Source of the DNA: Halorussus rarus | GTDB taxonomy: Archaea; Halobacteriota; Halobacteria; Halobacteriales; Haladaptataceae | Length of the DNA: 64,000 bases | Direction of reading: 5' to 3' | NCBI RefSeq assembly: GCF_003369835.1 | Contig: NZ_QPMJ01000002.1 | Coordinates: 1,240,001-1,304,000, forward strand | Translations under genes and position numbers: made by a program | Part shown: one piece after another, positions 54,749 to 56,107 of the stretch | Position numbering within the stretch: position 1 is the first letter of the stretch | How the letters are laid out: each line of letters starts with the position of its first letter | Notes under the pieces: model-generated | Told to the model about the DNA's origin: nothing | Databases searched by the model: none | Seen by the model: only the letters and a program-made list of their open reading frames with translations

Positions 54749-55621
54749 ATGAACGTGACCGTCGAGGTCGTCGGCGAGGGGAGCCGCGACCTCGAAGTCG
54801 AGGACGCGACCTACGCCGACCTGCTGGCCGAGGTCGACCTCAGCCCCCACGAGGTCTCGGTGATGGTCGACGGGCGGCCCGTCCCGGAGGACCAGCCCGT
54901 CGAGGCCGACCACGTGAAGGTCCTGCGGCTCATCAAGGGCGGCAGCGGCGACGACGGGCCGACCAGCGAGGCGGAGGTCGACGCCCTCGCCGCACCCCAG
55001 GACGAGGACGAGGCCGGCCCCGTGACGGCACTCGACCGCGAGCGCCGGAGCCTCGGGGTGTCGGAGCTCGACTTCGAGCTACCTAACGCCGGGGCGGGGC
55101 CCGACCCGCTGTCGCTGTCGTCGTTCGCCGCCACCAGACCCGGCCGGGACGACGCAGACGAGTTCGTCGGACGCGAGTGGGTGACGGGGCGTCCGGACGA
55201 GAACGAGGCCGTGGTCCTGCTGTTCCTGCGCGACTACTGGTCCCGCGGCTGCCGGCAGCAGGTCCAGGACGTGGCCGACCGCTACCGGGAGTTCCGCGAG
55301 CGCGACGCCGCGGCGGTCGCGGTCCTCCCCGAGCCCGAGGGAAAGGCCGGGAAGTGGCAGTGGAAGTACCACCTGCCGTTCCCGCTGGTGGCCGACGCCG
55401 ACAAGACGGTCGGCGAGCAGTACGGCCAGCCCACTCGGTTCGGCCCGCTCGGGCGGCGCGTCGACCTGCTGGGCCGACTGCCCCAGGTCGCGATTCTGGA
55501 CGCGCGACACGGCGAACTGGGGCTCGACGCGGTCCACCGCGGCGACGGGCCGGACGACCGGCCGTCGGTCGACGACGTGCTGGCGATGGTCGACCGACTG
55601 CTCGGCGACGACCGGGAGTGA
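54749..55621 (+). CDS. SAMP2-like ubiquitin fold fused to a redoxin domain
   Basis: Residues 1-65 of this 290-residue protein match haloarchaeal SAMP2, a ubiquitin-like modifier and sulphur carrier: MNVTVEVVGEGSRDLEVED, then LSPHEVSVMVDGRPVPEDQP, and VKVLRLIKGG with its diglycine at 64-65. Normal SAMP2 ends there. Here an acidic linker (66-92) leads to a thioredoxin-like AhpC/TSA domain with VVLLFLRDYWSRGCRQQVQDV (Cys168) and LPFPLVADADKTVGEQYG. A GTG at 55022 (residue 92) could start the redoxin alone. CGCTTACCC (54713-54721) is the likely TATA element. The GNAT gene follows by 12 bases. Confidence 0.82.
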   Translation: MNVTVEVVGEGSRDLEVEDATYADLLAEVDLSPHEVSVMVDGRPVPEDQPVEADHVKVLRLIKGGSGDDGPTSEAEVDALAAPQDEDEAGPVTALDRERRSLGVSELDFELPNAGAGPDPLSLSSFAATRPGRDDADEFVGREWVTGRPDENEAVVLLFLRDYWSRGCRQQVQDVADRYREFRERDAAAVAVLPEPEGKAGKWQWKYHLPFPLVADADKTVGEQYGQPTRFGPLGRRVDLLGRLPQVAILDARHGELGLDAVHRGDGPDDRPSVDDVLAMVDRLLGDDRE

Positions 55622-55633
55622 GGTCGGGCGGCG

Positions 55634-56107
55634 ATGGACGTCAGCGTCCGCGAAGCGACAGACGGCGACCGGCTCGACGTGCGGCGCGTCCTCGACGCGG
55701 CGATGCTCCGGATTCGTGTCGACCTCGCCGAGCGCGTCGGCGCCGGCGACGTGCTGGTGGCGGTGGAGGCCGGGGGCGGCGGTGGCGAAGACGACGGTGG
55801 CGAAGACGGCGACCGTTCCGTCCTCGGCGCGCTCGTCCTCGTCTCGGGCGGGGACGGAACGGACGAACGCACCGGCGCGCACATCGACGCCGTGGCGGTC
55901 CGGCGGGCGCGCCGGGGGCAGGGCATCGGCTCGGCGCTGGTCCGGGCCGCGGCCGAGCGCCGCGGGGTCGTGACCGCCGAGTTCGACCCGGACGTGCGGC
56001 CCTTCTACGAAGCGCTCGACTTCGATATCTCGCGGGTGGACGGGGACGAGAACGAGGACGGGAGTCGGCTGTGGGGTCGGTACGACGGGACTGCGGACCC
56101 TTCCTGA
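55634..56107 (+). CDS. GNAT-family acetyltransferase
   Basis: This 157-residue protein has the acetyl-CoA-binding motif AVRRARRGQGIGSALVRAAAERRG and the usual C-terminal FYEALDFDISRV. An acidic Gly-rich loop (GGGGGEDDGGEDGD) interrupts the early beta strands. The substrate is unknown. It starts 12 bases after the SAMP2-redoxin stop, so the two are probably co-transcribed. Confidence 0.85.
   Translation: MDVSVREATDGDRLDVRRVLDAAMLRIRVDLAERVGAGDVLVAVEAGGGGGEDDGGEDGDRSVLGALVLVSGGDGTDERTGAHIDAVAVRRARRGQGIGSALVRAAAERRGVVTAEFDPDVRPFYEALDFDISRVDGDENEDGSRLWGRYDGTADPS

Follow-up and report, generated by a model that had tools for sequence, protein, structure and literature searches.

A SAMP2–redoxin fusion as the only SAMP2 gene of Halorussus, a probable ubiquitin-like precursor

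Results

The window (the whole 64,000-nucleotide stretch of Halorussus rarus DNA analysed here) contains a single open reading frame in which the ubiquitin-like modifier SAMP2 runs through its diglycine into a redoxin, the junction reading LIKGG followed directly by SGDD (Table 1). The original prediction described such an in-frame fusion and assigned the first 65 residues to SAMP2 as far as LIKGG, and both statements were borne out. The Pfam SAMP2 profile PF21965 matched residues 1-62 (2.6e-30; 105 bits against a cut-off of 27), and the NCBIfam SAMP2 equivalog NF041919 matched residues 1-65 (114.5 bits against a cut-off of 70). SAMP2 of Haloferax volcanii (HVO_0202; PDB 2l32 and 4hrs) aligned with the fusion protein as far as LIKGG; residues 1-65 are clearly orthologous to it and share its LRLIKGG end. 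However, the Haloferax protein stops at GG, whereas the Halorussus frame goes on for another 225 residues. Since the diglycine is internal in the translated protein, the C-terminal diglycine expected of a SAMP2 would be present only after cleavage. An AlphaFold2 model contained two confident domains, a beta-grasp with pLDDT ~94 and a peroxiredoxin fold mostly >90, and between them a low-confidence segment that starts at Gly64 and spans residues 64-78, with pLDDT ~50 across residues 61-90. The model places the GG/Ser junction in a predicted flexible, accessible segment between the two domains. The linker, originally called acidic, is indeed rich in Asp and Glu (31%), but such a content is unremarkable for a halophile.

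Table 1. Coordinates of the SAMP2–redoxin gene, its parts and its downstream neighbour (positions in the window).
Feature	Position	Strand	Basis and remarks
SAMP2–redoxin fusion gene	54749..55621	+	290 aa; ATG start; stop TGA at 55619-55621; conserved in Halorussus
SAMP2 beta-grasp domain, residues 1-65	54749..54943	+	PF21965, NF041919, PDB 2l32/4hrs, pLDDT, dN/dS
Diglycine codons, Gly64-Gly65	54938..54943	+	invariant in 20 fusions; predicted cut after Gly65, before Ser66
Flexible linker, residues 66-101	54944..55051	+	variable length, low pLDDT, high dN/dS
Peroxiredoxin-fold redoxin domain, residues 102-290	55052..55618	+	PF00578, PF08534, Foldseek
Cys168 at peroxidatic-Cys position (RDYWSRGC)	55250..55252	+	CxxC in most relatives
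GNAT acetyltransferase gene, the conserved next gene after samp2 or samp2-redoxin	55634..56107	+	PF13508, 1e-8; order recurs at many loci

The second domain had been predicted to be peroxiredoxin-like with Cys168. The fold and the cysteine stood, while the canonical peroxidase motif was missing. PF00578 (AhpC-TSA) matched residues 152-228 (1.6e-14; 54.4 bits against a cut-off of 26) and PF08534 also matched the domain (8e-8). The best Foldseek match was Aquifex AhpC2 (5ovq, 2.7e-10), and Bcp structures matched with TMt ~0.8. Compared with the active-site motif Pxxx(T/S)xxC, RDYWSRGC agrees at Ser165 and Cys168, but Arg161 stands in place of the proline, a replacement that is invariant among the fusions. 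No resolving cysteine is present in the window's protein. That Cys168 is its only cysteine excludes an intramolecular 2-Cys mechanism but would be compatible with a 1-Cys one. Across 18 Halorussus the active site reads CxxC in 10, SxxC in 7 (the window's protein included) and CxxS in 1; the first Cys has thus become Ser in 7 of 18, while the unfused relatives nearly all retain CxxC. Against the profile of SelL-related redox proteins (NF040769, cut-off 120 bits) the domain scored 35.3 bits and its stand-alone relatives 51-55 bits, all below the cut-off. Since the canonical peroxidase motif is lacking, the peroxiredoxin-like fold should not be taken to mean a peroxidase, and we refer to the domain as a redoxin of putative activity.

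We searched related Halorussus genomes for the same arrangement. SAMP2 and the redoxin occurred together in all 18 genomes searched, and GG and redoxin lay in one frame in 17 of them (16 complete genes and one fragmentary metagenome-assembled genome, with G012 among these); the in-frame junction of the window therefore recurs in 16 further Halorussus. In the eighteenth, G006, the pair is split, and the SAMP2 frame, reading LIKGGAV-stop, terminates at a run of six G (GGGGGG) directly behind the diglycine. There (L025, bases 1690-1710) the redoxin lies in the other frame and starts at a GTG that overlaps the stop as GTGA. The gene may be naturally split at this point, the run may be a slippery site, or the assembly may be wrong because of a homopolymer indel. 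That the fusion as a whole is a sequencing or assembly error, or a chance read-through frame, is practically excluded. The broken frame in G006 is the one observation in its favour, but a G-homopolymer indel would itself account for that genome, 17 genomes read through, and the 17 other species carrying the same pair rule out a stop codon hidden by a sequencing error after GG. LIKGG was invariant in 20 of 20 aligned fusions from three genera, as was LRLIKGG in the Halorussus set used to compare fused with stand-alone SAMP2.

A separate intact samp2 elsewhere in the genome would have weakened the case for the fusion, but a profile search of the window's genome found none, the only other match scoring 14 bits, below the cut-off. 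Each Halorussus genome has one SAMP2, and it is always the fused copy. The selection pattern along the gene is uneven. Over 16 Halorussus genes the three parts had median dN/dS values of 0.09 (SAMP2), 0.64 (linker) and 0.36 (redoxin), the redoxin likewise being under purifying selection. In a comparison with stand-alone SAMP2 of Haladaptataceae the values for SAMP2 were 0.08 (fused) and 0.09 (stand-alone), so that purifying selection acts on the fused domain as it does on the free protein. The linker directly after GG is nearly unconstrained; its length ranges from 12 to 50 aa across Halorussus, always by in-frame changes. Thirteen of the 16 genes compared (the split G006 included) have Ser directly after the diglycine.

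We considered whether the redoxin might also be made separately from an internal start. In the stretch from GG to the redoxin core, 9 of 16 species had no in-frame ATG, GTG or TTG, and no start codon in the linker was common to all. In those nine species the redoxin is therefore produced only as part of the fusion, and we rejected an internal start as a general explanation.

The machinery expected around a SAMP2 precursor is present. The window's genome encodes a desampylase of HvJAMM1 type (NF041370, 170 bits against a cut-off of 130), which is not linked to the fusion locus, and a second JAMM, together with one copy of UbaA (NF047750, 511 bits against a cut-off of 450). An NcsA-like protein (TIGR00269) occurs in 18 of 18 Halorussus. 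All three SAMP1/MoaD-type ubiquitin-like proteins (Ubls) of this one Halorussus genome likewise extend beyond GG, their tails being 5 to 13 residues long. They end, each at a stop codon, in GGSVTAP (L131, G000:C2:802796; tail SVTAP), GGAGDQATGTVETNR (L132, G000:C2:829806; tail after GG AGDQATGTVETNR) and GGRWRRQKSRSRR (L133, G000:C2:964249; tail after GG RWRRQKSRSRR). Counting the SAMP2 fusion, no GG-type Ubl found in the window's genome is encoded ending in GG. A further MoaD-like protein (L134, G000:C2:828356) has a Cys-Cys C-terminus (PFIFCC-stop) and apparently belongs to the beta-grasp family with CC ends that Makarova and Koonin 2010 pointed out.

Residues past GG were also found beyond Halorussus. 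Among 392 genomes of the order, 141 had (V/I)LRLIKGG directly before a stop, and 55 (17 Halorussus and 38 others) had the same core followed by a codon not starting with T, the pattern being strict enough to leave about half of the 392 unclassified. The 38 others carry mostly short unrelated tails. Since tails after GG are this common, trimming after GG must presumably be ordinary in these archaea. In genus g7 (for example G068, G126, G280 and G134) similar SAMP2 tails recur, ATDGGA-stop and ATDGDA-stop, as do longer repeats of that unit after GG.

The neighbourhood of samp2 in other haloarchaea points to how the fusion may have arisen. In Haladaptatus (9 species) and Halomicrococcus (1 species), the sister genera of Halorussus, samp2 ends LIKGG-stop and is followed directly by the GNAT gene, with no redoxin between. 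Stand-alone redoxins sharing 36-57% identity with the fused domain are common across Halobacteria; they are often located directly 3' of samp2 as separate open reading frames, then followed by the same GNAT gene, and unlike the fused form they mostly keep CxxC intact. In the group of L059 and L070 samp2 and redoxin overlap by ATGA. GNAT has been listed as a neighbour of the Ubl group of SAMP2 in Halobacteria (Makarova and Koonin 2010, PMC2948915). The samp2-redoxin-GNAT order is an old haloarchaeal gene cluster. Outside Halorussus, two genera belonging to a different family also have fusions, reading LIKGGSGRGHAPETVDFEG... in G097, G161 and G221 and LIKGGDGSAASDDHEES... in G265. A further candidate in G150 was discarded because its SAMP2 was truncated or frameshifted and its genome fragmented. 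A tree of 56 redoxins placed the three fused groups separately from one another, amid unfused relatives. A single clade of all fusions was rejected modestly (p-AU 0.027), for a group named after the loci were seen, while joining the two non-Halorussus fused genera was not rejected (p-AU 0.265). At least two origins is the number these two values allow us to claim. As the gene order is widespread, we conclude that the fusion arose at least twice through loss of the samp2 stop codon.

Discussion

The original prediction left three readings side by side, namely a processed precursor, a permanently tethered modifier and a redox enzyme with a built-in sulphur carrier. Of these the precursor is clearly favoured by the invariant GG, by constraint on SAMP2 equal to that on the stand-alone protein, by the presence of tRNA-thiolation genes, which depend on a free SAMP2 C-terminus, and by the desampylase orthologue. 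We consider it probable that the fusion is a ubiquitin-like precursor cut after Gly65 by a JAMM protease, most likely the desampylase of HvJAMM1 type; a protease that cuts SAMP2 free would most likely be needed where the fused copy is the only one. Two features of JAMM-processed Ubl precursors were found here, a GG at the junction, invariant and flexible in the model, and a desampylase encoded by the genome. Adenylation by UbaA requires a free GG end. Both in vivo and in vitro, HvJAMM1 cuts a linear SAMP1-MoaE fusion behind its GG, and that fusion is functional only with jamm1 present; the published linear-fusion tests considered here used SAMP1, not SAMP2 (PMC4443979). JAMM-family enzymes of Caldiarchaeum process ubiquitin and SAMP precursors (PMC6043591).

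In the sequence of events that we propose, the samp2 stop codon would have been lost in an existing samp2-redoxin-GNAT cluster, giving one SAMP2-linker-redoxin polypeptide. The desampylase at G000:C2:787448 would most likely cut it after Gly65, exposing the diglycine end for UbaA and releasing a redoxin that begins at Ser66 and keeps the linker. Once free, SAMP2 could serve in sampylation and, with the NcsA-like enzyme, as sulphur carrier for tRNA thiolation. The fusion would fix modifier and redoxin at 1:1 and would make the supply of active modifier dependent on desampylase activity. The cleavage itself, the identity of the protease and any link to redox state are the parts of this model that we infer.

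If SAMP2, as a tethered modifier or a built-in sulphur carrier, were instead a permanent N-terminal domain serving only the redoxin, in targeting, solubility or binding, then the other Ubls would have to carry out conjugation and thiolation. The genome does hold three SAMP1/MoaD-type Ubls, and the missing redoxin start codon in 9 of 16 species makes the fusion an obligatory product there. A tether needs no GG, however, and because the diglycine and the entire SAMP2 sequence are as conserved as in the stand-alone protein, this arrangement is improbable. The other Ubls carry tails past GG too, so that processing would still be needed with them, UbaA and the NcsA-like enzyme are retained, and tRNA thiolation in Haloferax specifically requires SAMP2, along with UbaA (PMC3980101). 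A variant of the precursor reading, not mutually exclusive with it, is that the fusion is neutral, a stop codon having been lost in a tightly packed cluster and tolerated since the desampylase trims whatever follows GG, with co-translation as the only consequence. The frequent short unrelated tails after GG fit this view, as do the nearly unconstrained linker and the loss of a CxxC cysteine (7 Halorussus lack the first, one lacks the second). Against it, the fused state has been held through the radiation of the genus with only in-frame linker changes, fused genes have arisen more than once, and the redoxin remains under purifying selection. We regard neutrality as possible but rather doubtful.

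Returning to the precursor, comparable arrangements are known. MoaD-MoaE (Ubl-MoaE) fusions likewise join a Ubl through GG to an enzyme, and JAMM is able to free both (PMC4443979); in Halorussus the Ubl is of ThiS/SAMP2 type, the partner redoxin is unrelated to MoaE and processing is predicted. Eukaryotic ubiquitin-ribosomal protein fusions and the Caldiarchaeum ubiquitin/SAMP precursors (PMC6043591) likewise have a C-terminal extension whose removal exposes GG, whereas in Halorussus a redox protein forms the extension and the genome has no other gene for that modifier. Ubl precursors and Ubl-enzyme fusions are thus already known as kinds. In human cells ubiquitin is cut from precursors. Our literature search returned no account of a SAMP2 made as an enzyme-fused precursor, and we know of none; nor did it return a description of the samp2-redoxin cluster of haloarchaea or of the fusions within it. 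As the fused gene is the only SAMP2 throughout the genus, whether archaeal sampylation depends on proteolytic maturation becomes testable in a culturable organism.

The choice of partner also has parallels. In yeast, Urm1 becomes attached to the peroxiredoxin Ahp1, for which the peroxidatic Cys of Ahp1 is required (PMC7016264), Saccharolobus Urm1 modifies two peroxiredoxins (PMC12625751), and in Thermococcales Ubl genes adjoin peroxiredoxin genes, printed as OcmC family (PMC2948915). All three tie a modifier of Urm1/SAMP type to a peroxiredoxin-type protein, but through a post-translational lysine isopeptide bond or through gene proximity, whereas Halorussus uses a genetically encoded peptide bond and another redoxin subfamily. 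The haloarchaeal cluster, whether fused or not, fits this pattern. One reading, which we hold to be unlikely, is that the fusion is a pre-formed counterpart of the Urm1-peroxiredoxin conjugate, in which attached SAMP2 keeps both parts inactive until a desampylase tuned by redox state or zinc releases both; if true, sampylation and tRNA thiolation would be coupled to oxidative stress. The Urm1/SAMP-peroxiredoxin link has so far been known from yeast and Sulfolobales, and an old samp2-redoxin cluster with repeated fusions provides independent genomic evidence that it may be ancient and not incidental.
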